A stretch of DNA of 64,000 nt from NCBI GenBank assembly GCA_028554795.2, contig CM068842.1, positions 22,044,590 to 22,108,589 on the forward strand, given 5' to 3'. This document shows positions 11,077-55,323 of this stretch, one piece after another. The notes beneath the pieces were generated by a model, which was given only the letters and a program-made list of their open reading frames with translations, ran no database searches and was not told the origin of the DNA. Both the position numbers and the translations under genes were made by a program. How positions within the stretch are numbered: position 1 is the stretch's first letter; every line of letters starts with the position of its first letter. Origin of the DNA: Sinohyriopsis cumingii (taxonomy: Eukaryota; Mollusca; Bivalvia; Unionida; Unionidae).

Positions 11077-11412
11077 AGTAGTAAGGTGGGATACATTAGC
11101 GTCAATGGGAATTAGCATTAAAAACACCCCTGGGTCAGATTAGCGTCAAGGGAAATTTAACATGGAGAAAAATCGTGGGTCAGATTAGCGTCAAGGGAAA
11201 TTAACATGGAGAAAAATCGTGGGACGGTTTAGCGTCAAGGGAATTTAAACAGGGTGGGACTTTATAGCGTCAAGGGAAATTGAACATGGGGATTTTTTTA
11301 AAAATTTTTTTTAAATTTAAATTTAAATTTAAATTTAAAAAAGGGTAGGCAATTGAAAGGCTATCTCTTTTCGAGAAATATGGCTGGCCCTGAAAAGGGC
11401 CTTTGGGTTTAT
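11077..11412 (+). repeat. Left terminal inverted repeat, copy A
   Basis: Matches the reverse complement of 32001-32329. It contains an ATTTAA hexamer array (about 11308-11340) and five TTAGCGTCAA motifs at 11096, 11140, 11185, 11229 and (as ATAGCGTCAA) 11264, spaced 44-45 nt for the first four. The inner end carries a histone-type stem-loop. Confidence 0.9.
11386..11401 (-). terminator. Histone-type 3' stem-loop
   Basis: In mRNA sense it reads AAA then GGCCCTTTTCAGGGCC then AGCCA: a 6-bp stem, TTTC loop and flanks like the metazoan histone consensus. A purine block CGAAAAGAGA follows about 12 nt later, like a U7 target. It ends the terminal gene at 11501-12018. Confidence 0.8.
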
Positions 11413-11500
11413 TCTGCTTCTTCTATTTCCTCCATTTCCTCATCCATCCCCTAATCTTTCCCCAAATTCCTTTGTTCTTCCTTTTTTCTTTTTCAGGTAA

Positions 11501-12018
11501 TCAGTCTGGGTGACCCATAGCCCTGAACTTCTCTTGTATCTTGATCCAATTTTGATTGACTTTGTCAAAGGCCTCTTTCTTCTTTATTGTTTCCTCATCC
11601 TGTTTTTCTTGACTCCATTTTTCTTTTATCTTTTTCACCTCTTCAGTCATCACTTGTTTCATTATTTCTTCTCCTTTTTTAACTTGTTCAGTCCCCTCTT
11701 CATATATGACAACTCCGTCCAATACACTATATGTTCTAGGAAGCACCGGACTTGGATGACATAATCCAGTGCTTCCTTCAAACTCCCCACTCTGACATAC
11801 GGTGGGTCAATAAATCCTCTTGATTTGTTGACTTCATCTTCTATCATTCCTTCTATTATATGTCTGGCAGTCTTTATACGTTCGACTTGACTGGTTACCA
11901 AGTGTTCTTTATCTTCATACTCCTATTCCTTTTGTATCCTTTCTATAGCGTATTCTGCATCTATTATCCAGAAATAGATATGCCTCAATTGATTAAATAA
12001 ATCAGTCACTTGCGTCAT
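11501..12018 (-). pseudogene. Terminal-cassette helical protein, broken
   Basis: The frame starts MTQVTDLFNQLRH at 12018, meets an in-frame TAG after about 31 codons, continues as an open helical segment (start near 11901), and needs a frameshift near 11680-11700 to reach a Lys/Glu-rich coiled-coil tail ending at 11501. I do not recognise a function. Its promoter and 5' leader are almost identical to those of 54581-54970 in copy B, but the coding sequence is largely different. The histone-type stem-loop follows about 100 nt after the stop. Probably a small helical, coiled-coil protein before decay. Confidence 0.55.
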
Positions 12019-12079
12019 CTTGTCTAGATTATTCTTTGTAGAATGGTTTGAACGACGAATACTGTGGGTTCTTATACGA

Positions 12080-12178
12080 AAAGCGCGGACGTGAAGGAAA
12101 ACATCCCCCTAAAAACATAAAATTGATCTTACCTAGATCATGACCAAACAACGCGCGGACGTGAAGGAAAACATCCCC
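12080..12178 (-). promoter_or_regulatory. Two copies of terminal-gene promoter element plus TATA-like box
   Basis: On the minus strand the core GATGTTTTCCTTCACGTCCG occurs at about 12153-12178 and 12080-12108. The second is followed by a GTATAAG box at about 12071-12077, about 55 nt upstream of the ATG at 12018. The same double arrangement occurs at 54424-54530 in copy B. Confidence 0.65.
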
Positions 12179-12494
12179 TACTTTCTCATTTCATATAATA
12201 AAACCAAAACTATACTCTCCACATACGCTAAGAAACATTAAACAAACCCATAATCTACTATTTACACAAACTTACGTGAGCAGTTACAAACACAAACACA
12301 AACACAAACACACAAAATGAACAATAAAGAAACCCATAATCCACTATTCACACAAACATACCTGAGCTCTTACAAACACAAACACACAAACACATACCCT
12401 CACACAATGAAAAAAGAGTTAGTGTTTATATTTACACTACTCTACCTACACACATTGGCAAATTAATAGTTATTTCTTTTCTATAGTATTGGGT
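12179..12494. other. AC-rich spacer between terminal cassettes
   Basis: Contains CACAAACACAAACA-type repeats (12290-12420) and a conserved block CTACACACATTGGCAAAT near 12444-12463 that also lies downstream of the other stem-loops. No gene seen. Confidence 0.5.
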
Positions 12495-12509
12495 AGCCTA
12501 TAAAGGGCT
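12495..12509 (-). terminator. Decayed histone-type 3' stem-loop
   Basis: In mRNA sense AGCCCTTTATAGGCT followed by ACCCAATAC and GAAAAGAAATAAC. One stem base is lost relative to the perfect AGCCCTTTTAAGGGCT at 54188-54203, shortening the stem to 4 bp. Flanks and the purine block are retained. Confidence 0.65.
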
Positions 12510-12535
12510 GTTTTTTGAACTCCAGATGCACCTAT

Positions 12536-12844
12536 CTAATGGTGGCACCTTCCAGGACTGGCGCCACACACACATCTTTGACTCCAGTCTCTTTTTACTT
12601 TTTGTCTTGAGAGTGCAGAGGCGGGATGATTCGCTTCAGCACCCCAATCCTCTGTCTCGGGAATATTGTATGACAGCCTCTCTCCTATTTTCTTTTCCTC
12701 TTCTTCCCTCTCTCTTCTCTCCTCCTCTACCTTCTTTATTCTTGCTTCTTCTACGATAGCCTCCGCTGATAGTTCGTTTGCTATGCGCCTGGCATATTCC
12801 AGGTACATCTGGAGTTCTAGCAGCTTCACAATCCTTGTATTCAT
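12536..12844 (-). CDS. Terminal-cassette coiled-coil protein, 102 aa
   Basis: Starts MNTRIVKLLELQMYLEYARR at 12844. Residues 1-35 are predicted helical, then a highly charged Glu/Arg/Lys segment (about 36-57) looks like a single helix or coiled coil, and the C-terminus has a short CVCG pair. The copy at 53852-54160 is the same length and nearly identical, which argues for a real gene. A TATAAAT box lies about 52 nt upstream and the promoter element just beyond it. The stem-loop after it is damaged in this copy. Function unknown. Confidence 0.7.
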   Translation of the reverse strand: MNTRIVKLLELQMYLEYARRIANELSAEAIVEEARIKKVEEERREREEEEKKIGERLSYNIPETEDWGAEANHPASALSRQKVKRDWSQRCVCGASPGRCHH

Positions 12845-12895
12845 TCTCTTGCTGTTAACAGGTCGACGATGGGCCCAACTGACGATTAGTTTTTA

Positions 12896-12934
12896 ATTTA
12901 TAGTGAAAGCGCGGACGTGAAGGAAAACATCCCC
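12896..12934 (-). promoter_or_regulatory. Terminal-gene promoter element and TATA box
   Basis: The shared core lies at 12906-12934 with TATAAAT at 12896-12902 (minus), for the gene starting at 12844. A second, degraded copy (CGCGCGGACC-type) is at about 12982-12994. Confidence 0.65.
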
Positions 12935-12994
12935 CTAAAAACATAAAATTCATCTTACATAGATCATGACCAAAAAACAACAACGCGCGGACCT

Positions 12995-13312
12995 AAAAGA
13001 AACATTCACTCACTTTTTTATGCTACCCATCACTATTGTAAAATTTTTTATAAATCACTTCAATAGACTATTTACATACGCAAAGCAATCCAATCTAACC
13101 CCAAATCTACACCTCAAACACCAAAAAAGACATGATTTTAATCTACTATCCACACCAACCTACTTGATCACTTACAAACACACAAACACACAATCCTGTA
13201 CACAAACACATACCCTCACATTTTTTTGAAAAAGAGTTAGTGTTTATATTCACTCTACTCTACCTACACACATTGGCAAATCGATCGTTATTTCTTTTCT
13301 AGAGTATTGGGT
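12995..13312. other. Spacer between terminal cassettes
   Basis: Paralogous to 12179-12494: AC-rich repeats, then a block ending CATTGGCAAATCGATCG. The 87-aa plus-strand frame here is His/Thr-rich repeat translation and is not supported in copy B. Confidence 0.5.
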
Positions 13313-13328
13313 AGCCCTGAAAAGGGCT
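13313..13328 (-). terminator. Histone-type 3' stem-loop
   Basis: In mRNA sense AGCCCTTTTCAGGGCT followed by ACCCA and, 12-13 nt on, GAAAAGAAATAACG. Perfect 6-bp stem with TTTC loop, 29 nt after the stop of 13358-13720. Confidence 0.8.
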
Positions 13329-13357
13329 GTTTTTTTTGTTTGCTATGGCATTCTTTT

Positions 13358-13720
13358 TTAGTTTCTAAGAATGCGATGTCCTCTGAGGATAGACTTTCTG
13401 GCGATAGGTCTGCTTCTTCGGAAAGAGAAGAAGAACTCTTTGGTGTCGATACGACAATCGACAAAGCCTCTGTCAGCTTCAGGTTGCTGCTGCTGTTGTT
13501 GTTGTTGTTGCTGCTGTTGCTGCTGTCTCTGAAGTCTGTACTTCTCTGTCAATTCTTCTTTTTCCCTGTTCATTTCTTCTCTGAAGAGCTCTTCTATCAT
13601 GTCTTCAGTGATTTTTAACATTCTCACATTCTCTATTTCTTCTGGCTTCGGTATCAGACTGTGTCTGACCCTATGCAAATTCACGTAGGCTTCGTTGAGC
13701 TTAGCTAGTTTGGAACACAT
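13358..13720 (-). CDS. Terminal-cassette polyglutamine coiled-coil protein, 120 aa
   Basis: The first ATG gives MCSKLAKLNEAYVNLHRVRH. Residues 1-60 form Glu/Lys-rich helices; a run of about 15 glutamines follows (CAA/CAG mixture); the tail is Arg-rich and ends RGHRILRN. The ortholog at 45242-45610 differs mainly in glutamine-run length. The helical core resembles that of the 54581 gene, suggesting duplicated paralogs. The promoter element lies at 13784-13812 and a histone-type stem-loop follows. Function unknown. Confidence 0.7.
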   Translation of the reverse strand: MCSKLAKLNEAYVNLHRVRHSLIPKPEEIENVRMLKITEDMIEELFREEMNREKEELTEKYRLQRQQQQQQQQQQQQQQPEADRGFVDCRIDTKEFFFSFRRSRPIARKSILRGHRILRN

Positions 13721-13783
13721 CTTCTTAGGAGGATGAGTCGACAATGGATGGTTAGACTGGAAACAACCCCGGTTCTTAAAGTC

Positions 13784-13812
13784 AAAGTGCGGACGTGAAG
13801 GAAAACATCCCC
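13784..13812 (-). promoter_or_regulatory. Terminal-gene promoter element
   Basis: The core GATGTTTTCCTTCACGTCCG lies on the minus strand upstream of the gene at 13720, with an ACTTTAAGAACC segment in the TATA position. It matches 45149-45177 in copy B. Confidence 0.65.
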
Positions 13813-13942
13813 CACACGGTTTTCGAGCCGCAACGTTCAGTGAGTGTTATGGGAGGGATAGTAAGAAATGAAAGAGCATCAATCCAACATTCTTATAGCT
13901 AAACAAAAGACAAAGGCATTTTTTTTTCAAAACACAACATTT

Positions 13943-13948
13943 TTTATT
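13943..13948 (-). terminator. Poly(A) signal after the protease gene
   Basis: AATAAA on the minus strand, 91 nt after the protease stop; conserved at 45017-45022 in copy B. Confidence 0.65.
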
Positions 13949-14038
13949 CAAAAATCACTGAACACTAAACAACAACTCTAACATTTTTAACAATAATCCA
14001 ACACTATAACATCAAACAATTTTTTCTCAATTTACAGT

Positions 14039-14599
14039 CTACTTTAAACAGGGCTGACAACGTTGTGAATGAAATTGTGATTTCCACTGTTGGAAATCAT
14101 TAGGCCATTGATGGACACTACGTTTCCTAGCTTGAGACAAAAGATAAGCATAATGGTCACAAAACCATCGATCTACTTTCACATCGTTTCTAGTAGAAGA
14201 ACGAGGATCAAAATGAGTCACTATATGTTCTAAGGAATAGCCCAGGCTGCGATGATGCAGAAAATACACACAGTACTGTCCACACACCAAGGAATCTGTG
14301 CCTTGTAATTTCACATTATTGAATCGGGTGGTTTGAGCATTTCTTCTCATAAAGTCGATGATATCGTCTTCCAAAGGGGGCAATCCGTACGAATCAAAAT
14401 ATTCCACACATCCTTCTTGAGGAAAGTAGACGGCTACCCAATGGGTTCCTGGGAGATGACTGTCGTCCGTGTTGATCACGTAAGCTTGATGGTCTTTAGG
14501 TTTGCGATGAGGGAGTTCATCTTTAGCACAGACGACAGGATTCCAAGAAGCCGTATACGAACTGTGGTTCAAAAGGTAATAAAGTTCCCAGGTATCCAT
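14039..14599 (-). CDS. PRO: Adenain-like cysteine protease (PRO), 186 aa
   Basis: A maturation protease of the adenovirus-protease (C5/Ulp1-related) type that would cleave capsid precursors. The catalytic His lies in GTHWVAVYF, the acidic partner in EYFDSYGLPP, and the Gln/Cys pair in LVCGQYCVYFL, in the expected order. The start MDTWELYYLLNHSSY is the first ATG; upstream in-frame codons lack one. It closes the capsid gene block, 23 nt after the gene that ends at 14623, and is followed by AATAAA. The copy in B has a frameshift. Length is normal for the family. Confidence 0.9.
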   Translation of the reverse strand: MDTWELYYLLNHSSYTASWNPVVCAKDELPHRKPKDHQAYVINTDDSHLPGTHWVAVYFPQEGCVEYFDSYGLPPLEDDIIDFMRRNAQTTRFNNVKLQGTDSLVCGQYCVYFLHHRSLGYSLEHIVTHFDPRSSTRNDVKVDRWFCDHYAYLLSQARKRSVHQWPNDFQQWKSQFHSQRCQPCLK

Positions 14600-14622
14600 T
14601 GTTTTGTGTGGTTTTTTCTTCT

Positions 14623-15108
14623 TCAAAGGTAATAATACGTTGTCAATTCGATCCTGACTTTTTGCTTGAAAATGTCTGACGAATAAACGGTTATTCGTTC
14701 TGTTTCCTCACTCTGATTCAGGAGAGCTTCGATACGATGGATCTCTTGAGTGGTTAATGGTGGACAAGAATGTTCACGCAAGTCTTTATACCACTGGTGC
14801 AACACGTCTTTGTTCGAGATGAGACTCCAAGCTTCGTCCAGATACTCGTCCAATTTGTCTTCTTGACTCAACATCAGGCATTTATCGTGTTGAATTTGAC
14901 TGGGATGATCGTTTTGACATCCATAGCAATTTATCTTGATCAATTCCGTCATTTTTTCCACCAAGTGTTTGGCAAAACAGGAGACTAAATGGGCTTCTTG
15001 TTCTGGCCATCTCGATTTCATCATGATCACTTCTTCTTTTTACACGGTCTCCTCACATTCCATCTTTAAAGTTTCTCCACTAGGTAAAGAGGGATAACAG
15101 TCTTCCAT
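14623..15108 (-). pseudogene. Conserved Polinton protein between capsid and protease, with early stop
   Basis: The copy-B homolog (43801-44304) is a 167-aa protein with a Cys motif NCYGCQNDHPSQIQHDKC and a C-terminal helical part. In A the frame starts MEDCYPSLPSGETLK at 15108 but ends at a TAA after 22 codons and lacks about 27 nt present in B. Translation could restart at an ATG near 15024, giving nearly the whole conserved domain. The CYGC...HPSQ..H..C signature recurs in animal Polintons as I recall them; its role is unknown. Its place beside the capsid gene suggests a virion or assembly role. Confidence 0.65.
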
Positions 15109-15113
15109 GGCTT

Positions 15114-16436
15114 CTAATAATCTAGAATGACTTCTCTCAAACTGTTGATTTCTATCGTATTGTCGAATTCTGCATACAGGATAACGTTCACTGTGTTTTC
15201 TGCGCGTAAAGCTTCTGCAAACTGAATTTCCACACGAATTTGGCCGGATTTTATAGGGTGGAAATGTCCCTCGTCGCTGCCTTGGTCTGGAGTGAAATCG
15301 AAAGCCCACAAAGCGTAGCCTCCTGCATAATCGTCGTACGAAATACCATGACTGGTGTTGGTTCCTAACTGTCCGGTAGTTTCGTACACGGACAAGTACG
15401 ATCTCAAATAATTCTTCGCGGCACCAAAGTTAGGCTCAAAGGGTCGGGTACACAAGGTCTTGCCATCGCGACTGACTTCAATCTTGGACACATTGTAATG
15501 ATGAAAGTTGAAAGGATTTTCGTGGTAGGCTCCGTTGAAGGCTGAATTCTTGACGATACCAACAATCAAACGTTTGGGTAACTGTCCTTGGAACAGATGA
15601 TCTTCGATCATCGATCGCTGTCCCGCAGGAATGGTGAAGGTTTTCACTTCCACGCGTCGGATTGGATACTTGGCGGTCGTTCTGCTCAATGTCTGACTGA
15701 TGTCGTTACCTACTTTAGGTAACACTTCTACGCGACGCACGTAGAGTCTGGCTTCTTCGATTTTGGTTTTGTAAGGGGAATTTTCTGCAGCCATCAAATG
15801 GAAAGCGGCACTGCTGCGATTCAGTCTCAAGCGGATATCCACCCCGTTCAGCAAATACTTTTCTTGTAACCACATGTCCAAATGCAAGCGATCCATCAGT
15901 TCTAAACTACGACTTCGATGAATTTTCTTTCGTCGTTCTACAAATCCCGTTGTATTTTGAGCATCCCCAGCAACTGTAATGCTGTTGAACCTAGTCGCTT
16001 GGTCAGGTTTCCATACCACGCAAGCATCTAGATGAGTGTTCTTGGCTTCTTTTCCGTACGTCAAGAGATTTTCCAGGTAGCCTCGATAAGGGTAAGTATC
16101 CATGCTGCTGCTGACCAGTTTGTTATTCAAGTACAAGTCCACTTCACTAAACAAGGAATGCATGAAATTATTGACGGGAGCTACTACATCATCATCGGCT
16201 AGGTCAGCGTTGGGTGGTTCGAACACTTTCACTTTTAAGTATAGGTAACTGCTATTCAGATCGATGTAATCTTCGGGCTGTCCTTTGATTTCAAACTCGA
16301 TGGGAGCGGAATCGGTCAATGAGGAGACCGGGTGAAATTCCACCCACTGGGATTCTTGCATCGTCATCATGGTGGGGGGCATGGCAAACATATCCAGTTC
16401 CGTCTTGGAACAAGCACAAGACTCTCGGTGCATCAT
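15114..16436 (-). CDS. MCP: Major capsid protein (double jelly-roll, hexon-like), 440 aa
   Basis: Contains WVEFHPVSSLTDSAPIEFEI, SSYLYLKVKVF, NNFMHSLFSEVDLYLNNKLV and PYRGYLENLLTYG, the conserved N-terminal jelly-roll signatures of the Polinton/adintovirus major capsid. The second half carries LPKVGNDISQTLSRT, FQGQLPKRLIVGIV and YDDYAGGYALWAFDFTPD. About 440 aa is slightly short of typical members but complete at both ends, starting at the tandem ATGs at 16436. It would form the icosahedral shell. It follows the pVI/pX-like gene at 16453 and precedes the small Cys protein. Two segments (about residues 75-85 and 135-170) differ strongly from copy B. Confidence 0.9.
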   Translation of the reverse strand: MMHRESCACSKTELDMFAMPPTMMTMQESQWVEFHPVSSLTDSAPIEFEIKGQPEDYIDLNSSYLYLKVKVFEPPNADLADDDVVAPVNNFMHSLFSEVDLYLNNKLVSSSMDTYPYRGYLENLLTYGKEAKNTHLDACVVWKPDQATRFNSITVAGDAQNTTGFVERRKKIHRSRSLELMDRLHLDMWLQEKYLLNGVDIRLRLNRSSAAFHLMAAENSPYKTKIEEARLYVRRVEVLPKVGNDISQTLSRTTAKYPIRRVEVKTFTIPAGQRSMIEDHLFQGQLPKRLIVGIVKNSAFNGAYHENPFNFHHYNVSKIEVSRDGKTLCTRPFEPNFGAAKNYLRSYLSVYETTGQLGTNTSHGISYDDYAGGYALWAFDFTPDQGSDEGHFHPIKSGQIRVEIQFAEALRAENTVNVILYAEFDNTIEINSLREVILDY

Positions 16437-16452
16437 TTTTTTTTGTTTTTTC

Positions 16453-16899
16453 TCAATAATCGAAAACGTCTAAGTCTCGAACGGTTCTTCTTTTCTTGGC
16501 CTTTCTAGCTTGAAGTCTGGTGAAAGGGTGTTTTCTGCGTCGTCTCTTTCTGCCTTGTCCTTGCTGAATGCCTGATTCGGTAGCGTGCAGGGCATTTATA
16601 GGTGTGTCTCGTCGGCCTAAAATGTCTTTACCCGTTTGCAGCAAGACATTTTTGCCTGCCCTCATGAAGGCTTCTTTAGGGTTTTGTTTGTCGATGATGA
16701 CATTTTGGAGAAATTCTTTGCCTTGCGTCAGTGCCGCATCTTTCAAGGCGTGCAATCCGCGTGTCACCATCGGTTTCAACACTGGGGCCACCGAACGAAA
16801 GGCCGATTTTACCATATCTCCTAAACCGTGTCCTCGCTGTGTAACAAGATAACCGGGTGGGATATTTCGGATTAACAACAGAACACGTTTTGACGACAC
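16453..16899 (-). CDS. Minor virion protein, pVI/pX-like
   Basis: The frame reads GYLVTQRGHGLGDMVKSAFR, a Gly-rich segment plus amphipathic helix seen in the adenovirus pVI/pX-like minor capsid proteins of Polintons, then a very basic tail RKRRRRKHPFTRLQARKAKK. No ATG precedes the conserved GYLVTQRGHG; the 148-codon frame opens at GTG and the first ATG (16815) is downstream of it. The normal start was probably lost when the repeat at 16967-17877 inserted upstream. The gene is missing from copy B by deletion. Confidence 0.6.
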   Translation of the reverse strand: MSSKRVLLLIRNIPPGYLVTQRGHGLGDMVKSAFRSVAPVLKPMVTRGLHALKDAALTQGKEFLQNVIIDKQNPKEAFMRAGKNVLLQTGKDILGRRDTPINALHATESGIQQGQGRKRRRRKHPFTRLQARKAKKRRTVRDLDVFDY

Positions 16900-16966
16900 A
16901 TATATGGTTTAATGTGGCGATTTATATGAGTAGTGGATTATGAAGATGTGTGCGTATTTATAATCC

Positions 16967-17877
16967 AAATATTGGATCTATTTAACAAAAAACGCACAGT
17001 TTCAAAGATGGAAAAAATATACAAATAAATTTAGTTCAGTAACCCTAAAATACAGGATAAATGATTTCACAAATGATTCAATAATTAAAAGATGAATATA
17101 GTTCACTCAAATAGTAAACGATGCAAGTCTTTACACATGGTAAAAAAATGTATTCGCTCAGGTAGCGAAATTATGTCACTAAACAAGAACGGATATACAA
17201 TCTGTCCTTCCAGTCCTGAATAATACACTGGGTCTTACTAACCCAAAATTAGCATACAGCTAAAAATACATGTGTGGAGATGCACTCCGTCACCCGTGCA
17301 CCATATCCGCTCCACAGCTCCTCCGAATCAATTTCACAACCAATATAGACTCCGGACCCTCGGAATACTATGATCACTTGAAACATTAGACCCTCCGGAC
17401 ACTTGAAATATTAGACGCTCCGAACCCCCTGATCCTTTGACGGCTCTACAGCTGGGTCACCTTAGTCACTCTTGACACTCCGGACGCTAGACATTAGACG
17501 CTCCGGCACCTTAAACGCTCCGGACACACGGACGTTTCTACACTCTGACAACACCGGACACCCCGGATATTCCTACCATCAAAACTCTCAGGCCTACAGC
17601 TGGAGTTGTGCGAATCCTTTAAGCAGGCCGCTTGCTGACAAAACCATTAGTATTGTAAAGGTCCTTTACATGTAGTAACATATTTATACCTTTAGAATTT
17701 TCGTTATTCTTTATCAAAGGCACCTTGCACGTGTGGCACAGGACGAATCGTACTCACGATTTCGAAATACATAGACCATATTATAATCACCCTCGGGTAT
17801 CGTTGTACAGAGAAAAAGAAACGAAACCCGAGTACATGTATTTAATTAACAACATTTACACCATTCCGTGACATGCT
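16967..17877 (-). repeat. Unclassified interspersed repeat, copy 2, inside Polinton A
   Basis: Begins AATATTGGATCTATTTAAC and ends ACCATTCCGTGACATGC, like the host copy at 7919-9385, and shares its CACTCAAATAGT and CTACAGCTGGAG segments. Internally it has a locally repeated CTCCGGAC motif (17330-17570). It separates the penton-like gene from the pVI/pX-like gene and no Polinton gene is seen in it. Confidence 0.6.
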
Positions 17878-17911
17878 GTCGTGCAACCCCTCGGTACACT
17901 GGATACATGAC

Positions 17912-18829
17912 TTACGAATCGTGAGAAAACCGCTTTCGAAAATGGAGTTTCACCGTGACTTTTCCTTTGGTGAATGGAATATTTTGTCCCAGATCTCCTT
18001 TTATAGCAATGTTGACCGTGTCCAAATACGACTTGCTGACAGGCAAATAATGAGGATGTACAAATTCCCGGTGGACGTGATAGGTGTTTCCACCTTCCTG
18101 GTCACTGGTTGTGGTACTATCCACTTTGAAAGGAATGACACGCAGTAACGGTACGGAGGTGTGTCCCACCACGTTGTACTCCACCACATCGGAGTACACA
18201 AACATCAAATTCAGTCCTTGATTTAGTTCTACCGGTTTTCCAAACGCTCTGTAAAAATCCATATTACTGTTGATCTTGGGGCTCCAATTGTTTGCGACCA
18301 TTGTTGGATGTCCACCAATAATTTCAAACAAACTACCATTGAACCTGAAGGACAACATTTGGGTATCCGGAAATTTCATCAGTAAGCGACGAACCACTTT
18401 ATGGTAGTCCAGTGTGACACGTTTACTTTGTTTGTTCAGGGCTTTGCCAAAGGCTAACTCTAACCTGTCCGCAATAGTGTCCACCAAATGTTGGCCACTA
18501 AAATAAAACCCTGCCGGAATTTTCAAGGTGTGGATACTGAAGGCTGGATTGCTGGCTGGTCTTGTGTCCCCTGAAAACCCGATTTTGTTGATTTCTTCCT
18601 CCAATTGGGCATTCAGGATTTCCACCTCAAAAAAGTTTTGCTTTTCAGTGATGTTTTTGATTTGTGTAGGGTAAATTATTTCTACTAAAGCCACTTCCCA
18701 ATGGGCTTCGTGATCTAACGGGATGGCTTGAGGTAATTTGGCCGTGTAACAGCACAACGTGTTGTTGGGAAACACCTCCATGGAACTGTCACTGGGTAAG
18801 GTTAAGTAAAATTCGTTTTGGTGACTCAT
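17912..18829 (-). CDS. Penton-like minor capsid protein, 305 aa
   Basis: Starts MSHQNEFYLTLPSDSSMEVF, followed by NTLCCYTAKLPQAIPL and HWEVALVEIIYP, the conserved N-terminus of the Polinton minor capsid (penton/PY) protein, a single jelly-roll. The C-terminus has HREFVHPHYLPVSK and DTVNIAIKGDLGQNIPFTKG. The start overlaps the stop of the membrane-protein gene by 4 nt (ATGA). The middle (about residues 65-210) is highly divergent from copy B although the first 60 residues are almost the same. Likely located at capsid vertices. Confidence 0.8.
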   Translation of the reverse strand: MSHQNEFYLTLPSDSSMEVFPNNTLCCYTAKLPQAIPLDHEAHWEVALVEIIYPTQIKNITEKQNFFEVEILNAQLEEEINKIGFSGDTRPASNPAFSIHTLKIPAGFYFSGQHLVDTIADRLELAFGKALNKQSKRVTLDYHKVVRRLLMKFPDTQMLSFRFNGSLFEIIGGHPTMVANNWSPKINSNMDFYRAFGKPVELNQGLNLMFVYSDVVEYNVVGHTSVPLLRVIPFKVDSTTTSDQEGGNTYHVHREFVHPHYLPVSKSYLDTVNIAIKGDLGQNIPFTKGKVTVKLHFRKRFSHDS

Positions 18830-19242
18830 AATTCCAGAGTTCTGTGGCTCTCCGAGGGGTTAGTGGACGTCAGAGGCGTGTCTCCGTCTAAAATGGGGTT
18901 CTGATTGTGGTTGGAGTGGTGACTGACACTGGCACTGGACACAAGGTTCCCGTGGTTCCCGTTCGAGGAGAATTTCAGGGAGGGATTGGGAAGCAGGTAA
19001 CCGATGCAACTGCTCAATAAAATGGTCCACAATTGTTTGTCTCCTTGTTGCAAACTCAAATTGGCGATGGGTGCCCCGATGACACAATACACCACGAAGA
19101 TTTGGCAGAAAAAGACGATTTGCGTTTTAGGCACACGTTCTCCACACCACACCCACAAGGGTTGTTTTTGTAAATCTTGCACAGAAGAACTGGGTGAAGG
19201 TGGAGTGGTCGACGTAGCTGCGTCTGCTGTGTGAAAGGGCAT
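18826..19242 (-). CDS. Small two-helix membrane protein, 138 aa
   Basis: The first ATG gives MPFHTADAATSTTPPSPSSS. Two hydrophobic stretches follow, around IVFFCQIFVVYCVIGAPIAN and LWTILLSSCIGYLLPNPSL, then a Ser/Asn-rich tail. The GDK-LWT-LLSS-GYLLPNP pattern is, as I recall, a recurrent membrane protein beside the penton gene in animal Polintons. It lies 5 nt after the integrase stop and overlaps the penton start. Likely a virion or envelope-interacting membrane protein; function not known. Confidence 0.7.
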   Translation of the reverse strand: MPFHTADAATSTTPPSPSSSVQDLQKQPLWVWCGERVPKTQIVFFCQIFVVYCVIGAPIANLSLQQGDKQLWTILLSSCIGYLLPNPSLKFSSNGNHGNLVSSASVSHHSNHNQNPILDGDTPLTSTNPSESHRTLEL

Positions 19243-48773: not shown

Positions 48774-48800
48774 TAACCCTCAACACAAAAGAATCAATAA

Positions 48801-51800
48801 ATGACCACCCCAATAATGGATTATACAACAAACCGGAACATTATAATATGGCAATGGAATGCTAGAGGCTTAATAAGTAATATCAGTGAACTCAAAGCCA
48901 AATTACAAAGCTTAGAACACAAACCAGATATTATATGCATTCAAGAAACAAAAATAACAAGTAGAACCAAACAAATACCCAAACTCCCAGGATATGCCCC
49001 AGGTCACTTCAAAAATCGAACCACGGGACAAGGAGGTGGGGGTTTAGCCATCTATATAGCAGATAACATCCCGAATGTAACAACAATAACCATAACACCA
49101 ACCCCAGGTAGCAACGAAGCATTCGAAATTCAGTCCCTCATAATTCATACAGGCAAGGGTCAAATACAAATATTCAATATTTATGACCCAGGGGGAACAT
49201 CAGGCACAGCTAACTTAATTACTTACAAACAAATAAATGATCACAAACGAGTAAATCAGATCGTCATCTGTGGAGATTTCAATGCCCATAACGAGCTATG
49301 GGGGGGCGGTGTGACGGACAAAAGAGGCAAATTGATTGAAGAATGGACCGCAGAATCTAACTTAGCCATTTTAAATGACGGTACAAAAACACGCCTTAAC
49401 CCAGAAAACGGTCTCATGTCCGCCATCGACCTCACCATTTGCTCGCCATCAATAACCCAGGTGGCGGACTGGAGAGTGGATCAAACTGACCCCTTGGGCA
49501 GTGACCACTTTCCAGTAATAGTCACCCTGCAGATGACGGTCCAATACAACTCGCTAAAAAGAACCCCTAGATGGATATATTCAAAAGCAGATTGGACCTC
49601 ATTTAATGAAACACTAAGCAAAATAGACACCAAAAACATAGAAAATGATAATATTAATAAATATTACGAAGACCTGATTGATACCATACTAAAGGCAGCC
49701 ACCACTAACATACCCAAAACCAGTGGTAACCCACATAAACAAGGAGTCCCATGGTGGAATGATGAATGCAAACAAGCCATCACTGATAAGAAAAAAGCCC
49801 TCAATAAATTCAAACGCACTAAAAACTCTATTGATTTCACTATATATAAACAAAAGGAGAAAAACCTTAAAAACATAATTAAACAGGCAAAGGAATCAAC
49901 TTGGCATAATTACTGCACGAATATCAATATCACAACTAGTACCAAACAAGTCTGGGATAAGATTAGATCAATTAGAGGAAAGACAACTAACACCACTCCA
50001 AAAATAGCTGGAGCCATTACTAATAAAGAAAAGGCTGACCGACTAGCTCAGCATTTCTCAGATATGAGTAGCAACACCAACCACACCCCAGCATTTCAAT
50101 TACATAGGGACAAAGTAGAAAGAACCCATAGTAATCTCTTTAAAGACCTCGGTCCCAAAGTCTCGAACCTAAATAAAGACATTACAACTTACGAATGGGA
50201 CCTAGCATTGAAAACCAAAAACGAAACTAGCCCAGGGGAAGATCAAATAGGATACACAATATACAAAAATATCCCAAATAACATTAAACAAACAATTATT
50301 AAATTACTAAACCAAATATGGACCTCAGGCAAACTACCCGATAAATGGAAACACGCAATAGTAATTCCAATACCCAAGCAAGGAAAAGACCCTAACGATA
50401 TTAGCTCCTACAGACCCATTTCCCTAACAAACAACATTTGTAAGATCATGGAAACCATAGTCACCAACCGACTCAAACACCACCTAGAGAGCAATAATTT
50501 AATCTCCGATAATCAATGCGGATTTAGAAACAAAAGATCCACCACGGATCAACTAATACGATTAGAAACCGCAATTAAATTGGCGTTCAACTCCAAACGC
50601 AAAGCTGATAGGAATTTAATTGCAGTATTTATTGACCTCGAAAAGGCATTCGACCTTGTATGGACCAAAGGCTTATTAGCCAAACTCAACCACTACGCCA
50701 TCACAGGTCGAATGTTTAAATTCATTGAAAACTTCCTCGCTGACCGTAAAATATCAACCAGAGTCGGCGACACCTACTCTGAACCACACACACTTGAAAA
50801 CGGTACACCACAAGGGAGCGTACTCAGCCCAACCCTTTTCAACATCATGATTAATGACTTGGACACCAACTTAACATCAAAACTAATTGAACTCTCACAA
50901 TTTGCTGATGATAGTGGATTATGGAGAGCAGGAAACCCTTCCAACCACAAAGTAATCAGCGATATTCAAACAAGTTTAAACAAAATAGGGAAATGGGCTG
51001 ATAAATGGGGTTTCAAAATATCCCATGAAAAAACCATAGCAGTATTATTCACCACCAAACGTAAATTACAAAATCAGTTTCCCAAACTCACCATCCAAAA
51101 TCAAGAAATTAAATTCGTAAATGTAGCACGATTTTTAGGAATGCATTATGACTCCAAGCTAAACTGGGGACACCAAATAAACGAACTAGTCAAAAGGTGT
51201 AATAAAGACCTTAACCTCCTTACAACCCTTAAAGGAACCACCTGGGGATCCAATCAAGAAACCTTACTAGCTTTATATAAATCGTTAATTAGATCTAAAC
51301 TAGATTACGGATGCCAAATTTACAACTCGGCACCGCAAAATAACCTCAAAAAACTAGATAGCATACAAAGAAAGGCCCTAATTATTTGCACTGGTGCACT
51401 ACCATCCACATCACTAGTGGAACTTCAAATCTTAACTGGAGAACTGCCGCTCCACCTTAGAAGACAAGAACTCACCCTCAGATATGCAGCCAGGCTAACA
51501 ACACACCCCGACACACACTCCACCCGGCTAGCTATAAATAAATGCAACATACCTTTTAGAACTAAATTATCACAAAACATACCAGCAGGGAAATTAGTCC
51601 ATCAATTAGTTGAACAACTTCCTATAGACAAACTCCAAGCAGAAATTGCAAATCACTATGACAAAGAACCATGGATAAATATCAACCCCACAGTTAACAC
51701 CCTCATTACGAAATATGGCAATAAAAACGAACAGGAACTCAAACTAAACACAATCTGTACAGAAGAAATCAACTCAAAATATTGCAACTACATTAAGATT

Positions 51801-52664
51801 TACACTGATGGATCCAAAATTACAGAACCACCCAGAACAGCAGCAGCTTACGTAATCCCCGAACTTAACATTAAAGTAGGAAGAAGACTACCTAACCTCT
51901 GCTCTATATACACAGCTGAATTCTGGGCCATACTTGAAGCACTCAAATGGATCAAAGAGAACAAAATACCCCAAGCGGTAATAATAAGTGACTCGCTAAG
52001 CGTCATAAACTCAATACTTAATAACAACACCAAATCAAGAGAAAACTATCTTAGGCAAACCAATTTATTGTTAAAAATACTGAACAATAATAACTTACAA
52101 GTAGAATTTATGTGGATACCATCCCATATTAACATACCAGGTAACGATATGGCAGATATAACAGCTAAACAAAAACTAAACGAAACCACTCACATCAACC
52201 TAGATTATAGCATATGCGAACTCAATAGCATATCTAAAACCCTCATTGATAATAAATGGCAGGAATTATGGAACACAAGCACTCAAGGCAGGAAACTAAA
52301 AACCATCATTAAAGAAGTATGTAGAAATAGGAAACCACCCAAAACAAAAGGCAGTGAACAAAAATTCATAAATAGAATACTCACGGGCAAAACCAGGCTG
52401 GCTAACAGCTTCGGACAGTACATAGGACCACAACCACATAACCCTAACTGCTACCACTGCAGGGTCCCAGAAGACATAGAGCATATTTTTAACAACTGCC
52501 ATACACTTGAAAAAGAAAGGGCTAAGTTTAAAGTTAAACAGCATAAAATTGGATCCCCTACAACATACCCAGAATTCTTGATGAACACAAACCCCAATAT
52601 TAATCTAACATTCAAAAATATCATAAGTTTTATACACGAATCCAATCTACTCAAAAAAATCTAA
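48801..52664 (+). CDS. LINE ORF2: endonuclease, reverse transcriptase, RNase H, 1,287 aa
   Basis: N-terminal APE-type endonuclease (WQWNARGL, IICIQETK, ICGDFNAHNELWGG, SDHFPVIV) spans about residues 15-245. Reverse transcriptase (about 500-780) has YRPISLTN, FIDLEKAFDLVW near 610, GTPQGSVLSP and QFADDSGLW near 700. RNase H has YTDGSK near 999, then IYTAEFWAI, IISDSLSVI and WIPSHINIPGNDMAD. A C-terminal C-x2-C-x7-H-x4-C (CYHCRVPEDIEHIFNNC) is typical of I and Jockey groups. No stop interrupts it. Confidence 0.92.
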   Translation: MTTPIMDYTTNRNIIIWQWNARGLISNISELKAKLQSLEHKPDIICIQETKITSRTKQIPKLPGYAPGHFKNRTTGQGGGGLAIYIADNIPNVTTITITPTPGSNEAFEIQSLIIHTGKGQIQIFNIYDPGGTSGTANLITYKQINDHKRVNQIVICGDFNAHNELWGGGVTDKRGKLIEEWTAESNLAILNDGTKTRLNPENGLMSAIDLTICSPSITQVADWRVDQTDPLGSDHFPVIVTLQMTVQYNSLKRTPRWIYSKADWTSFNETLSKIDTKNIENDNINKYYEDLIDTILKAATTNIPKTSGNPHKQGVPWWNDECKQAITDKKKALNKFKRTKNSIDFTIYKQKEKNLKNIIKQAKESTWHNYCTNINITTSTKQVWDKIRSIRGKTTNTTPKIAGAITNKEKADRLAQHFSDMSSNTNHTPAFQLHRDKVERTHSNLFKDLGPKVSNLNKDITTYEWDLALKTKNETSPGEDQIGYTIYKNIPNNIKQTIIKLLNQIWTSGKLPDKWKHAIVIPIPKQGKDPNDISSYRPISLTNNICKIMETIVTNRLKHHLESNNLISDNQCGFRNKRSTTDQLIRLETAIKLAFNSKRKADRNLIAVFIDLEKAFDLVWTKGLLAKLNHYAITGRMFKFIENFLADRKISTRVGDTYSEPHTLENGTPQGSVLSPTLFNIMINDLDTNLTSKLIELSQFADDSGLWRAGNPSNHKVISDIQTSLNKIGKWADKWGFKISHEKTIAVLFTTKRKLQNQFPKLTIQNQEIKFVNVARFLGMHYDSKLNWGHQINELVKRCNKDLNLLTTLKGTTWGSNQETLLALYKSLIRSKLDYGCQIYNSAPQNNLKKLDSIQRKALIICTGALPSTSLVELQILTGELPLHLRRQELTLRYAARLTTHPDTHSTRLAINKCNIPFRTKLSQNIPAGKLVHQLVEQLPIDKLQAEIANHYDKEPWININPTVNTLITKYGNKNEQELKLNTICTEEINSKYCNYIKIYTDGSKITEPPRTAAAYVIPELNIKVGRRLPNLCSIYTAEFWAILEALKWIKENKIPQAVIISDSLSVINSILNNNTKSRENYLRQTNLLLKILNNNNLQVEFMWIPSHINIPGNDMADITAKQKLNETTHINLDYSICELNSISKTLIDNKWQELWNTSTQGRKLKTIIKEVCRNRKPPKTKGSEQKFINRILTGKTRLANSFGQYIGPQPHNPNCYHCRVPEDIEHIFNNCHTLEKERAKFKVKQHKIGSPTTYPEFLMNTNPNINLTFKNIISFIHESNLLKKI

Positions 52665-52697
52665 GAAAGTAAATCAAAGACCAGTTAAAAATATAAC

Positions 52698-52912
52698 AAA
52701 TCACTGTTTGGGAATTATGACGGCCGGCTCGGTCTCGTGGGTTCACAGACTGACACAGCCGTTCATAGCCCGAATAATAAAAACCAGTTAAGGACGAATA
52801 TTACAAAATCACTGTTTGGGAATTATGACGGCCTGCTAGGTCTCGTAGGTTCACAAACTGACACAGCCGTTCATACCCCGAATAATAAAAACCAATTAAG
52901 GCCACAAAAAAT
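52698..52912 (+). repeat. Tandem duplication in the LINE 3' region, about 107-bp unit
   Basis: Two units share CACTGTTTGGGAATTATGAC and a later CTGACACAGCCGTTCATA segment, differing at a few bases. Confidence 0.85.
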
Positions 52913-53034
52913 TAAAATAGGAAAATAGGAATTAATTAAAACAGGACTCCATAATAACATACAAACAACCATAAAAACAAGTTTTCATTCCAAACCAATA
53001 AGATAGGGAATCAAAATAAATAAGGAATTGATGA

Positions 53035-53037
<3 letters not shown>

Positions 53038-53069
<32 letters not shown>

Positions 53070-53087
53070 AAAAAAAAAAAAAAAAAT
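53038..53087 (+). repeat. Internal poly(A)-like tract in the LINE
   Basis: About 50 bases of almost pure A, preceded by GATGAATAAAA, look like a poly(A) tail, yet 650 bp of other sequence follows before the target duplication. Confidence 0.85.
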
Positions 53088-53100
53088 ACTCCTAACCGTC

Positions 53101-53406
53101 TCCTTGTCTCTTAAACAACATCTGGCTGAACTTTTAAATCAAGTTTCCACAGCTATTTCTACTAACATACTCAGCCAAATCCAGGCAATGTTGGCAGACG
53201 ACACTGAAGAATTTGAAACTTCCACGCTGGCAGCGGCCCTGGAAGTATCATCATCCAGCGGCGATGAAGCTGATGAACCTGCACCACCTAAACAGAGTGG
53301 AAAAAAGGAAGGCTCTGTCTACCGGAATATCGGACTGGGAAAGGCAATTGATGATATCAAAAAAGTGGGCCACTTCGTCAATGCCACAAGACCGGGTGTC
53401 CTAATG
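53101..53406 (+). other. Open frame after the A tract, uncertain
   Basis: About 100 codons without an ATG start, reading TEEFETSTLAAALEVSSSSG and YRNIGLGKAIDDIKKVGHF. It is followed by several short hairpins (for example CCTGGGGGATGAGG / CCTTCCCCCAGG and ATCACGCAGTGCGTGA) down to the TAAC tail. It may be part of a different transcript or element joined to the LINE. No family recognised. Confidence 0.3.
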
Positions 53407-53736
53407 TGACCTCATCGCTGCCGACCAATCGTGGCGGGAGTCACATACTGCTTGGTTTGACACCTGGGGCATTTCAATCCAACTAAGAAACACGAGTGTG
53501 TGGTGTGACTATTCCCACTCATGTCTATTAGCCTTTCAGTCAGGTTGTTAAGGACTAGTTAGTCCTACACCTGAGTGGCTAAATTAAAAAGTACTCTTTG
53601 AGTACATAAAAGCCTGGGGGATGAGGCTCCTTTTCCTTCCCCCAGGAGTAATTAAAAATCACGCAGTGCGTGAATAAAAAAGTGGTACATGTTCAAAAGA
53701 ACGAAAACCACTATAATCCAAATAACTAACTAACTA

Positions 53737-53747
53737 AGGTAAGATGA
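53737..53747 (+). repeat. LINE target-site duplication (right)
   Basis: AGGTAAGATGA, pair of 45996-46006. Polinton sequence resumes after it. Confidence 0.85.
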
Positions 53748-53761
53748 ATTTTATGTTTTTA

Positions 53762-53800
53762 GGGGATGTTTTCCTTCACGTCCGCGCTTTCACTATAAAT
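53762..53800 (+). promoter_or_regulatory. Terminal-gene promoter element and TATA box
   Basis: Element at 53762-53790 and TATAAAT at 53794-53800, 52 nt before the ATG at 53852. The LINE landed only 15 bp upstream of it. Confidence 0.7.
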
Positions 53801-53851
53801 TAAAAACTAATCGTCAGTTGGGCCCATCGTCGACCTGTTAACAGCAAGAGA

Positions 53852-54160
53852 ATGAATACAAGGATTGTGAAGCTGCTAGAACTCCAGATGCACCTGGAAT
53901 ATGCCAGGCGCATAGTAAACGAACTATCAGCGGAGGCTATCGTAGAAGAAGCAAGAATAAAGAAGGAAGAGGAGGAGAGAAGAGAGAGGGAAGAAGAGGA
54001 AAAGAAAATAGGAGAGAGGATGTCATACAATATTCCCGAGACAGAGGATTGGGGTGCTGAAGCGAATCATCCCGCCTCTGCACTCTCAAGACAAAAAGTA
54101 AAAAGAGACTGGAGTCAAAGATGTGTGTGTGGCGCCAGGCCTGGAAGGTGCAACCATTAG
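53852..54160 (+). CDS. Terminal-cassette coiled-coil protein, 102 aa
   Basis: Starts MNTRIVKLLELQMHLEYARR; nearly identical to 12536-12844. Glu/Arg-rich helix (EEARIKKEEEERREREEEEK) in the middle and a CVCG pair near the end. It is followed after 28 nt by a perfect histone-type stem-loop. Function unknown. Confidence 0.72.
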   Translation: MNTRIVKLLELQMHLEYARRIVNELSAEAIVEEARIKKEEEERREREEEEKKIGERMSYNIPETEDWGAEANHPASALSRQKVKRDWSQRCVCGARPGRCNH

Positions 54161-54187
54161 ATAGGTGCATCTGGAGTTGAAAAAAAC

Positions 54188-54203
54188 AGCCCTTTTAAGG
54201 GCT
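54188..54203 (+). terminator. Histone-type 3' stem-loop
   Basis: AGCCCTTTTAAGGGCT (loop TTTA) then ACCCAATAC and GAAAAGAAATAAC. Confidence 0.8.
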
Positions 54204-54423
54204 ACCCAATACTCTAGAAAAGAAATAACTATTAATTTGCCAGTGTGTGTAGGTAGAGTAGTGTGAATATAAACACTAACTCTTTTTAAAAAATGTGAGG
54301 GTATGTGTTTGTGTGTTTGTGTTTGTAAGAGCTCAGGTATGTTTGTGTGAATAGTGGATTATGGGTTTCTTAGCGTATGTGAAGAGTATAGTTAGGGTTG
54401 TATTATATGAAATGAGAAAGTAG
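54204..54423. other. Spacer between terminal cassettes
   Basis: Contains the block ATTTGCCAGTGTGTGTAGG and GTGTTTGTG-type repeats also seen, inverted, at 12179-12494. No gene seen. Confidence 0.5.
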
Positions 54424-54530
54424 GGGGATGTTTTCCTTCACGTCCGCACGTTGTTCGGTCATGATCTAGGTAAGATCAATTTTTATGTCTTGGGGGATGT
54501 TTTCCTTCACGTCCGCGCTTTTTGTATAAG
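54424..54530 (+). promoter_or_regulatory. Two promoter elements plus TATA-like box
   Basis: Cores at 54424-54450 and 54493-54521, then TATAAG at 54525-54530, 50 nt before the ATG at 54581. Same arrangement as 12071-12178. Confidence 0.68.
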
Positions 54531-54580
54531 AACCCACAGTATTCGTCGTTCAAACCATTCTGCAAAGAATAAAAAAGAAG

Positions 54581-54970
54581 ATGGCTTCGAACCACCTTAA
54601 CAAAATGGAAAAATTGCAAAACGTCATGGACAATTTAGGAATGTTTGATCAAATGTTGGTTAACCTAAACGAGGATCACTACTCATATAGTCCCCATCGA
54701 GTGAAGATGGAGATAAACAATTTACGAAAAATGAAGTTAATCATCAGTGATCTGTTGAAAGAAATAAAGGAGGAGAAGGAGGATGAAGAGGAAAGGATAA
54801 GGATGAGAGCATGGAATGAAAAAATTGAAAAAGAAGAAGAAAATGAAAAGAGGAAGAAAGAAGAGGAGGAAGAGAAGAAGAAAGAAGAGGAGGAGGAGAA
54901 GAAAAAAAAGAAAGAGAAGAAGAGTGTAGGAGATAAAATAAGAACTTGGTGGAGGAAAAGAAGAAATTAG
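54581..54970 (+). CDS. Terminal-cassette coiled-coil protein, 129 aa
   Basis: Starts MASNHLNKMEKLQNVMDNLG. Residues 1-60 are mixed helices (PHRVKMEINNLRKMKLIISD); residues 65-115 are almost pure Glu/Lys; the tail is TWWRKRRN. The strongly charged helix suggests a coiled coil or single alpha-helix. It lies next to the terminal repeat, in the place held by an unlike gene in copy A. Function unknown. Confidence 0.68.
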   Translation: MASNHLNKMEKLQNVMDNLGMFDQMLVNLNEDHYSYSPHRVKMEINNLRKMKLIISDLLKEIKEEKEDEEERIRMRAWNEKIEKEEENEKRKKEEEEEKKKEEEEEKKKKKEKKSVGDKIRTWWRKRRN

Positions 54971-54978
54971 AAGAAGAA

Positions 54979-55323
54979 AACCCAAAGGCCCTTTTCAGGG
55001 CCAGCCATATTTCTCGAAAAGAGATAGCCTTTCCATTGCCCACCCTTTTTTTAAAAAATTTAAATTTAAATTTAAATTTAAATTTAAAAAAAAAATCAAA
55101 AAAAAATCCCATGTTCAATTTCCCTTGACGCTATAAAGTCCCACCCTGTTTAAATTCCTTTGACGCTAAACCGTCCCACGATTTTTCTCCATGTTAAATT
55201 TCCCTTGACGCTAATCTGTCCCACGATTTTTCTCCATGTTAAATTTCCCTTGACGCTAATCTGTCCCAGGGGTCTCTGTAATGCTAATTCCCATTGACGC
55301 TAATGCATCCCCCCTTACTACTT
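54979..55323 (-). repeat. Terminal inverted repeat, copy B
   Basis: Almost the same as 32001-32329 with a longer ATTTAA array (about 55058-55086). It ends CCTTACTACT next to a TACA repeat. No partner exists at the truncated other end of copy B. Confidence 0.9.
54987..55002 (+). terminator. Histone-type 3' stem-loop
   Basis: CCAAA then GGCCCTTTTCAGGGCC then AGCCA; CGAAAAGAGA about 12 nt later; 17 nt after the stop at 54970. Confidence 0.8.

Follow-up and report, generated by a model that had tools for sequence, protein, structure and literature searches.

Histone-type stem-loops downstream of accessory genes in a Polinton of the bivalve Sinohyriopsis cumingii

The Polinton and its two copies

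The DNA studied, referred to below as the window, is a stretch of 64,000 nt from Sinohyriopsis cumingii (GCA_028554795.2, CM068842.1, positions 22,044,590-22,108,589, forward strand) that contains one Polinton as two inverted copies (Table 1). The left copy measures 21.3 kb, with terminal inverted repeats of 337 nt matching at 93.5%; Polinton/Maverick elements range in size from 15 to 25 kb. The right copy starts within the gene for the family B DNA polymerase (PolB), lacks the left end, and is interrupted by a LINE inserted from ~46020 to 53739. Polintons have a target-site duplication of about 6 bp. The sequences flanking the left copy on either side, compared by eye, do not match, and a duplication could have been lost by rearrangement.

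The assignment to Polintons made in the initial annotation was borne out by the terminal inverted repeats and by Pfam matches to PolB (PF03175, E = 3.9e-39; the gene is two ORFs in the left copy), a retroviral-type integrase (rve, 2.1e-13; Chromo, 1.2e-7), and an A32-type packaging ATPase (PF04665, 6.7e-8). The candidate adenovirus-type protease scores below the PF00770 cut-off of 21.3 (16.4 bits, E = 0.0076). A 440-aa ORF, the candidate major capsid protein, had no Pfam match; among the 120 listed of its 818 homologues, several of the named ones are F54H12.2-like, and these homologues we take to be capsid proteins. A 21-nt promoter-like motif is present in eight exact copies in the window, one of them 5′ of gene C. 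The element is very common in the S. cumingii genome, with at least 150 scored matches to gene C out of 28145 first-look candidates.

Table 1. Coordinates of the Polinton copies, stem-loops, accessory genes, and promoter-like motifs in the window
Feature	Position	Strand	Remarks
Left Polinton copy	11077..32329	-	both terminal inverted repeats; most genes on - strand; some genes broken
Left-copy terminal inverted repeats	11077-11412 and 32001-32329		inverted match 11077-11412/32329-32001
Right Polinton copy, inverted	32919..55328	+	from blastn self-comparison and repeats
Stem-loop A, left terminal repeat	11386..11401	-	RF00032 35.6 bits (11361-11406); GAAAAGA at 11366-11372
Decayed stem-loop B, left copy	12495..12509	-	no RF00032 match; purine block retained
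Stem-loop C, left copy	13313..13328	-	RF00032 31.0 bits (13288-13333)
Stem-loop D	30913..30928	-	RF00032 41.2 bits (30889-30933), E = 9.6e-9; best match in window
Stem-loop A, right terminal repeat of left copy	32012..32027	+	RF00032 34.9 bits (32007-32052)
Stem-loop C, right copy	45641..45656	+	RF00032 23.8 bits (45636-45681)
Stem-loop B, right copy	54188..54203	+	RF00032 31.1 bits (54183-54228); loop TTTA
Stem-loop A, terminal repeat of right copy	54987..55002	+	RF00032 35.6 bits (54982-55027)
Gene B, left copy	12536..12844	-	102 aa
Gene C	13358..13720	-	120 aa; conserved in relatives
Gene D region	30956..31535	-	frame shifted within glutamine-rich stretch
Right-terminal ORF	31755..31988	+	77 aa
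Gene B, right copy	53852..54160	+	102 aa
Gene A, right copy	54581..54970	+	129 aa
Promoter-like motif, 5′ of gene C	13789..13809	-	exact copy
Promoter-like motif, other exact copies	12911-12931, 12155-12175, 12085-12105	-
Promoter-like motif, other exact copies	45152-45172, 53765-53785, 54427-54447, 54496-54516	+

Histone-type stem-loops

Seven intact and one decayed histone-type stem-loops had been annotated in this Polinton from the sequence, and all eight were found at the positions given. The Rfam covariance model RF00032 (Histone3; gathering score 34) matched seven of them, four over the gathering score and three below it. The eighth, the left copy of B, had no match, and its 6-bp stem, which forms in the predicted folds of all seven intact hairpins, does not form. 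Matches of the window to mir-297, sno_ZL1, and bxd_5 fell under their cut-offs and were dismissed as simple repeats or chance. The finer features were also as described, with a TTTC loop in six intact sites and TTTA in the other (54188), and a 3′ flank that reads ACCCA for B, C, and D and AGCCA for all three A copies. GAAAAGA begins 13 nt past the stem in every intact site, and this purine block is found in all eight aligned rows.

The initial annotation counted the eight sites as if they were independent, and here it requires correction. The sites at 11386, 32012, and 54987 are three copies of one terminal repeat, and the pairs 13313/45641 and 12495/54188 are copies between the two elements, so that copying reduces the eight sites to four genetic contexts (the A terminal repeats, B, C, and D). 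Self-comparison also revealed homologous DNA 3′ of the hairpin common to B and C. A single copy of the element holds four intact hairpins and one decayed hairpin.

A pattern scan of the window recovered seven hairpins, all with the purine block, compared with 0.046 hairpins and 0.0012 hairpins with the block per window in 6548 dinucleotide shuffles. The weakest fold was that of the right C hairpin, equalled by 30 of 200 shuffles; its stem carries one C to T change and retains a G-U pair. The four contexts are alike only from -8 to about +44, beyond which the flanks are near random, save that B and C share more. Across the window sites the stem is kept by one compensatory and one G-U change, although the compensatory change is a single pair and the number of such pairs was not above shuffles (453/500).

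The genes that precede the hairpins

All eight stem-loops are in the sense orientation relative to the preceding coding sequence. Their placement just after stop codons was upheld for most sites, at distances of 29 and 30 nt for the two C copies, 27 nt for right B, 16 nt for right A, 23 nt for the right-terminal ORF, and 27 nt for D, and failed for left A, where the gene is broken and the final ORF listed ends 260 nt short of the hairpin. The distance for D is measured from the stop shared with an intact homologue of 193 aa (P0129). An intron in gene D, considered because of a GT donor-like site seen by eye, was rejected because this homologue reads through as one frame. Another copy of the element (L013) has a 76-aa version of the right-terminal ORF, again with its stop 23 nt before the stem-loop. 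The A coding regions of the window copies are unmatched by blastn, and the promoter and the hairpin with its 3′ end are common to both.

That these small genes are not histones was likewise supported. There was no match to a histone Pfam family for right A, either copy of B, left C, D (as ORF or as P0129), or the 77-aa ORF. Gene C has eight relatives at 67-80% identity, and its AlphaFold prediction consists of two helices (residues 4-22 and 26-77). The idea that the accessory genes are diverged histones was rejected on the Pfam results together with the predicted two-helix form of C.

Host histone genes and conservation among copies

In the tandem H3 and H4 genes of the host, the stem GGCCCT/AGGGCC found in A and D is followed 13 nt later by GAAAAGA. 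This combination occurred 30 times in 30 fetched H3 loci and 29 times for H4, and the H3 and H4 ends scored 35.9 and 37.7 bits with Histone3 (four loci scanned). In the 2.9-Gb assembly, all 75 Histone3 matches scored, a sample chosen by hairpin out of 589472 first-look candidates, were copies matching the Polinton of the window, and all were over the gathering score.

Conservation was assessed in the best 30 of 150 scored protein C matches, which include the window's own copy and were chosen without regard to the hairpin. Since these copies are ranked by protein score and near-identical (95.6-100% in the CDS), their conservation reflects recent divergence. The stem-loop is exact in 29 of the 30, the purine block in all, and the 21-nt promoter-like motif in 28. 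Better conservation than in the flanks had been set beforehand as a test, and this was the outcome: the minor-allele fraction is 0.002 in the hairpin, 0.000 in the block, and 0.008 in the link between them, against 0.046 before and 0.074 after. Values elsewhere are 0.016 from +60 to +100, 0.05-0.06 beyond, and 0.039 at third codon positions. Of the columns of the histone-type signal, 4/40 are variable, against 208/386 in the comparison set (p = 3e-8).

Poly(A) signals

The initial annotation assigned AATAAA signals to the capsid, ATPase, and BIR genes, and this found no support: neither AATAAA nor ATTAAA lies within 400 nt of their stops. On their strand of the left element, AATAAA is found only at 11413, 11588, 12740, 13948, 22040, and 23395. 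The putative protease gene, last of the core gene block, has AATAAA at 91 nt. A search up to 400 nt from the stop found no AATAAA for either copy of B, left C, D, the right-terminal ORF, or right A; AATAAA lies 110 nt past the stop of right C, ATTAAA lies at 215 nt for left C, and the broken left A has two AATAAA 5′ of its hairpin.

Interpretation

The Polinton carries histone-type elements that are placed after stop codons, match those of host H3 and H4, and are selectively conserved across C copies. The hairpin and its downstream signal suggest that the element borrows the S-phase machinery of its host in place of ordinary poly(A)-tailed messages, and we infer SLBP/U7 use, lack of poly(A), and S-phase coupling for the accessory genes. 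Genes A, B, C, and D and the right-terminal ORF, at both ends of the Polinton, would form separate transcription units. SLBP would bind the hairpin of their pre-mRNAs, the U7 snRNP would act at the GAAAAGA found 13 nt further on, and cleavage would follow ACCCA, leaving no poly(A) tail. The core block between them, with the capsid, replication, and packaging genes, has an ordinary AATAAA at its end, and accessory-gene expression would be tied to S phase, when the replicating element needs it. Judged from sequence, S-phase-tied cutting by the host histone 3′-end machinery (SLBP, U7) is very probably what these genes undergo. The broader proposition that a virus-like family rebuilt its accessory regulation on the histone model, with a promoter motif, SLBP/U7 ends, no poly(A), and replication-linked expression, is tentative, with a chance that we put slightly short of even.

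The hairpins could instead descend from a captured histone 3′ end of the host and, having multiplied together with the element by duplication, no longer have a function. The long downstream homology of B and C, the copying of A along with the terminal repeats, the identity of the A and D stem and of GAAAAGA with host H3 and H4, and the decay of one window hairpin would all fit such an origin. Functionless relics are nonetheless improbable, as hairpin and block vary at 0.002 and 0.000 in the 30 protein-picked C copies against 0.016-0.074 in nearby non-coding DNA, promoter and hairpin are both retained where the coding sequence differs between window copies, and one pair change is compensatory. 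A DNA-level or generic terminator signal for replication, packaging, or recombination, with an incidental likeness to histone ends, has very little probability: three of the eight sites do lie within terminal repeats, but C and D lie in the interior of the element, each of the eight is oriented with the preceding coding sequence, and such a signal would not need a 13-nt spacing and a GAAAAGA block identical to those of host H3 and H4.

Overlapping with the favoured explanation is a role of the hairpin as a switch, giving histone-type ends in some cells, such as germline or embryo, and poly(A) ends otherwise. The more distant AATAAA of right C and ATTAAA of left C would suit it, as would human H2A genes, in which potential AATAAA signals occur 102 to more than 400 nt past the hairpin (PMC1924863), whereas the search up to 400 nt from the stop found no AATAAA for B, D, the right-terminal ORF, or right A; such a switch is possible but somewhat unlikely.

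With processing by SLBP and U7, a virus-like element would be able to time its genes to DNA replication, and its non-histone viral genes would be switched on as a whole set with that of the host. The transcripts would be invisible to poly(A)-selected RNA sequencing, and Polinton activity may then be underestimated. A many-copy mobile element with histone-type ends on several unrelated proteins is also a natural experiment on the positions required by SLBP and U7.

Comparison with known systems

In animals, to our knowledge, histone-type 3′ ends are almost confined to replication-dependent histone genes, and we know of no earlier description of a virus or transposon whose genes form an S-phase regulon run through 3′-end processing. 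The literature searched gave no interpretation of histone-type 3′ ends on Polinton genes. Protein scans of IMG/VR with the capsid (single sequence and alignment), integrase, ATPase, C, and PolB found no relatives. Two hairpin patterns matched nine IMG/VR contigs (ORFs were listed for one, L011); judged by eye from the 40-100 nt adjoining each hairpin, none had both an A-rich leader and a correctly placed purine block, and the matches were rejected as chance. Two distant partial Polintons from GTDB contigs (L009 and L010; 43-45% capsid identity) had no Histone3 match.

Like the host H3 and H4 ends, those of the Polinton combine a 6-bp stem, a four-base loop, an A-rich 5′ flank, and sense orientation, with GAAAAGA 13 nt past the stem and the hairpin 16-30 nt past the stop (27-28 nt in the host). 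They differ in the loop (TTTC, host TTTT) and the 3′ flank (ACCCA or AGCCA, host ACACA or ACAAA), and the Polinton genes tested match no histone family and belong to a dispersed mobile element, not a tandem cluster. In a set of 8300 genomes of Polinton-like viruses and virophages, six matches are given, in a section that names no position, gene, or interpretation (PMC12220804); compared with what that section presents, the window hairpins are placed after genes, occur several per element, and are conserved among copies. Bivalve Polintons/Mavericks, which include the capsid relatives from Mercenaria and oysters, share PolB, the chromo-integrase, the A32-type ATPase, terminal inverted repeats, and homology of the candidate capsid protein with the element described here. 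The literature found on them has no description of histone-type ends or of the 21-nt motif, and it is in the histone-type ends of its accessory genes, and in their common 21-nt promoter-like motif, that the Polinton of the window stands apart.

Two Inverted Copies of One Polinton

One Polinton is present twice in the window, in opposite orientations (see table), and the right copy is broken by an insertion. Pfam matches cover PolB, an integrase with a chromodomain, an A32-type ATPase, and BIR, with a weak match for the protease. Broken genes occur in both copies: PolB and accessory genes A and D in the left one, and in the right one the capsid ORF is shortened, with 342 aa versus 440 aa in the left. 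Capsid homology indicates a bivalve: of the 120 homologues listed, the best from named animals are those of Mercenaria mercenaria (53%) and oysters (Ostrea edulis, 44-46%), with closer ones at 81-84%; a homologue at 51% carrying a bacterial bin name is probably host DNA.

Features of the Polinton copies and their surroundings (window coordinates)
Feature	Position	Remarks
Left Polinton copy	11077-32329 (-)	Terminal inverted repeats ~337 nt, 93.5% (self-comparison)
Right Polinton copy	32919-55328 (+)	Starts inside PolB; end corresponding to the left copy's is missing
Insertion in right copy	~46020-53739	With LINE-type reverse transcriptase ORF
LINE-type retrotransposons with reverse transcriptase	46809-52664; 57966-61151	First inside right Polinton copy
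Repeated accessory ORFs	24406-25323	90 and 151 aa, duplicated starts; adjoin BIR gene
Gene A, promoter regions compared	12029-12309 / 54301-54572	Match between copies, as does the 3′ end
Gene A, coding regions compared	11434-12029 / 54572-54950	No match between copies
21-nt motif, eight exact copies	12085-12175 (pair), 12911-12931, 13789-13809, 45152-45172, 53765-53785, 54427-54516 (pair)	Upstream of A, B, and C
TTTGCCA-type word	e.g. 30871-30879, 13272-13280, 12454-12462	Common to hairpin sites, ~12-13 nt past GAAAAGA
Second hairpin-like sequence (by eye)	31974-31993	Overlaps stop of right-terminal ORF, just 5′ of its hairpin
Divergent promoter region	31535-31755	Between D and right-terminal ORF

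Histone-Type Stem-Loops at Accessory Gene Ends

The initial annotation placed eight histone-type stem-loops after small accessory genes; here these genes are called A-D and a right-terminal 77-aa ORF. With an E limit of 1, the Rfam model Histone3 matched seven sites, of which four lie above the gathering score and the best reaches 41.2 bits (E 9.6e-9); the eighth, near 12495, is decayed. A separate scan of the window, requiring a 6-bp stem and the expected loop and flank, returned seven hairpins, all with a correctly spaced purine block (GAAAAGA), while dinucleotide shuffles (n=6548) yielded 0.046 hairpins per window, or 0.0012 with the block.

By context, the sites form four groups: three copies of A in the terminal repeats, two each of B and C, and a single D. 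Across contexts, sequences are alike from -8 to roughly +44 relative to the stem and near random beyond, except that B and C are alike over a longer stretch and have related downstream DNA. At one stem pair, A and D have G-C where B and C have A-U; a second pair is either C-G or U-G. All counted stem cells pair (100%). Support from the seven distinct rows is modest: the paired percentage and covariation score were reached by 19/500 shuffles, and the count of pairs with changes in both members by 453/500.

Conservation across the Genome

Searching the 2.90-Gb assembly (1138 contigs) with Histone3 gave scores for 75 of 589472 first-look candidates, every one above the cut-off. About 1 kb was fetched around each of the 67 matches without a locus and all 75 were compared with the window; all match the Polinton, with 28 at the right-terminal site, 23 at D, 23 at A, and 1 elsewhere. 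These matches were ranked by hairpin and are therefore no proof of hairpin conservation, so a sample was taken by C protein instead, comprising the best 30 of 150 scored matches (28145 first-look candidates) and including the window's left C.

Of these 30 C copies, 29 have an exact hairpin and all 30 an exact GAAAAGAAATA block. Minor-allele fractions, counted without the 6 nt immediately 5′ of the stem, were 0.002 in the hairpin, 0.008 in the 13-nt link, and 0.000 in the block, against 0.046 plus length changes in the spacer before the hairpin, 0.074 in the 20 nt beyond the block, 0.016 from +60 to +100, and 0.05-0.06 from +100 to +400. Codon positions gave 0.003, 0.000, and 0.039. Variable columns numbered 4/40 from hairpin to block versus 208/386 elsewhere in the 3′ region (p = 3e-8), and 1/27 in hairpin plus block versus 23/86 in nearer columns (p = 0.006), with p serving only as a guide because related copies do not supply independent columns. 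Ranking by protein score has also probably favoured young C copies. The 26 nt around the 21-nt promoter motif, at 0.005, nearly match the hairpin in conservation.

Accessory Genes and Their Promoters

Gene C encodes a real protein, as shown by eight relatives at 67-80% identity; its predicted structure consists of two well-scored helices (pTM 0.36). Gene D is frame-shifted in the window; its intact homologue of 193 aa ends at the window stop 27 nt 5′ of the D hairpin. Right A encodes 129 aa. In the left copy the same promoter and hairpin enclose another coding sequence, which is broken, and in a further copy (L015) the A-type ORF has 182 aa and stops 21 nt 5′ of the hairpin. The terminal gene A position is a cassette-like slot. 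None of the accessory genes tested has a Pfam match to histone families.

The 21-nt motif is followed within ~10 nt by TATAA at four of its eight copies and by TTTAA at two; the other two form the outer half of a pair. D and the right-terminal ORF point away from each other, and between them the motif is absent even allowing five changes; this region holds TATA-like, inverted CCAAT-like, and CRE-like motifs.

Polyadenylation Signals and the Histone Pathway

AATAAA use had been proposed for the capsid, ATPase, and BIR genes, yet neither AATAAA nor ATTAAA occurs within 400 nt past their stops. The core-gene strand of the left element has six AATAAA, of which that at 13948 lies 91 nt past the protease stop, where the core gene block ends, so read-through to it is possible. 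No AATAAA or ATTAAA was found within 400 nt past the stops of B (both copies), D, the right-terminal ORF, or right A. Left C has ATTAAA at 215 nt and right C AATAAA at 110 nt past the stop, and broken left A has two AATAAA 5′ of its hairpin.

Published accounts describe the histone pathway as SLBP binding the hairpin and U7 the downstream element, with a cut past the hairpin and no poly(A) (PMC1924863; PMC2781718). Sequence and conservation suggest that the Polinton genes use this pathway, which may in turn couple them to S phase. Titles and abstract openings in the open-licence literature gave no description of histone-type 3′ ends in a Polinton, and no open-licence paper combining histone mRNA with Polintons was found. 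In the accessible parts, a PLV/virophage genome scan records six histone 3′UTR stem-loops without comment (PMC12220804), and work on adomaviruses and tailtomaviruses mentions histone-like proteins, not 3′ ends (PMC11071296).

Comparison with Host Histone Genes

Host histone genes, sought with PF00125 (150 scored of 662), form tandem units of ~8.3 kb, spread over many small contigs (e.g. C531, C561, and C310; loci L117-L146). The 30 loci returned were centred on H3, and H3 and H4 frames were read directly in one (L142), where the hairpin starts 28 nt past the H3 stop and 27 nt past the H4 stop. The H3 end is GGCCCT-TTTT-AGGGCC, ACACA, and GAAAAGA 13 nt past the stem (30 occurrences in 30 loci); H4 has the same stem, loop, and spacing plus GAAAAGA (29 occurrences in 30 loci). 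Histone3 scores in four scanned loci were 35.9 bits for H3 and 37.7 bits for H4. For the lucinid Lucina pectinata, a hairpin close to the stop has been reported, along with purine-rich elements in four of the genes (PMC6210712).

Host H3 and H4 share their stem with Polinton A and D, and their spacing and heptamer with the Polinton elements, but the Polinton loop and 3′ flank are unlike theirs, and the Polinton elements are therefore not recent copies of either host end. The divergent arrangement of D and the right-terminal ORF is reminiscent of divergent histone gene pairs.
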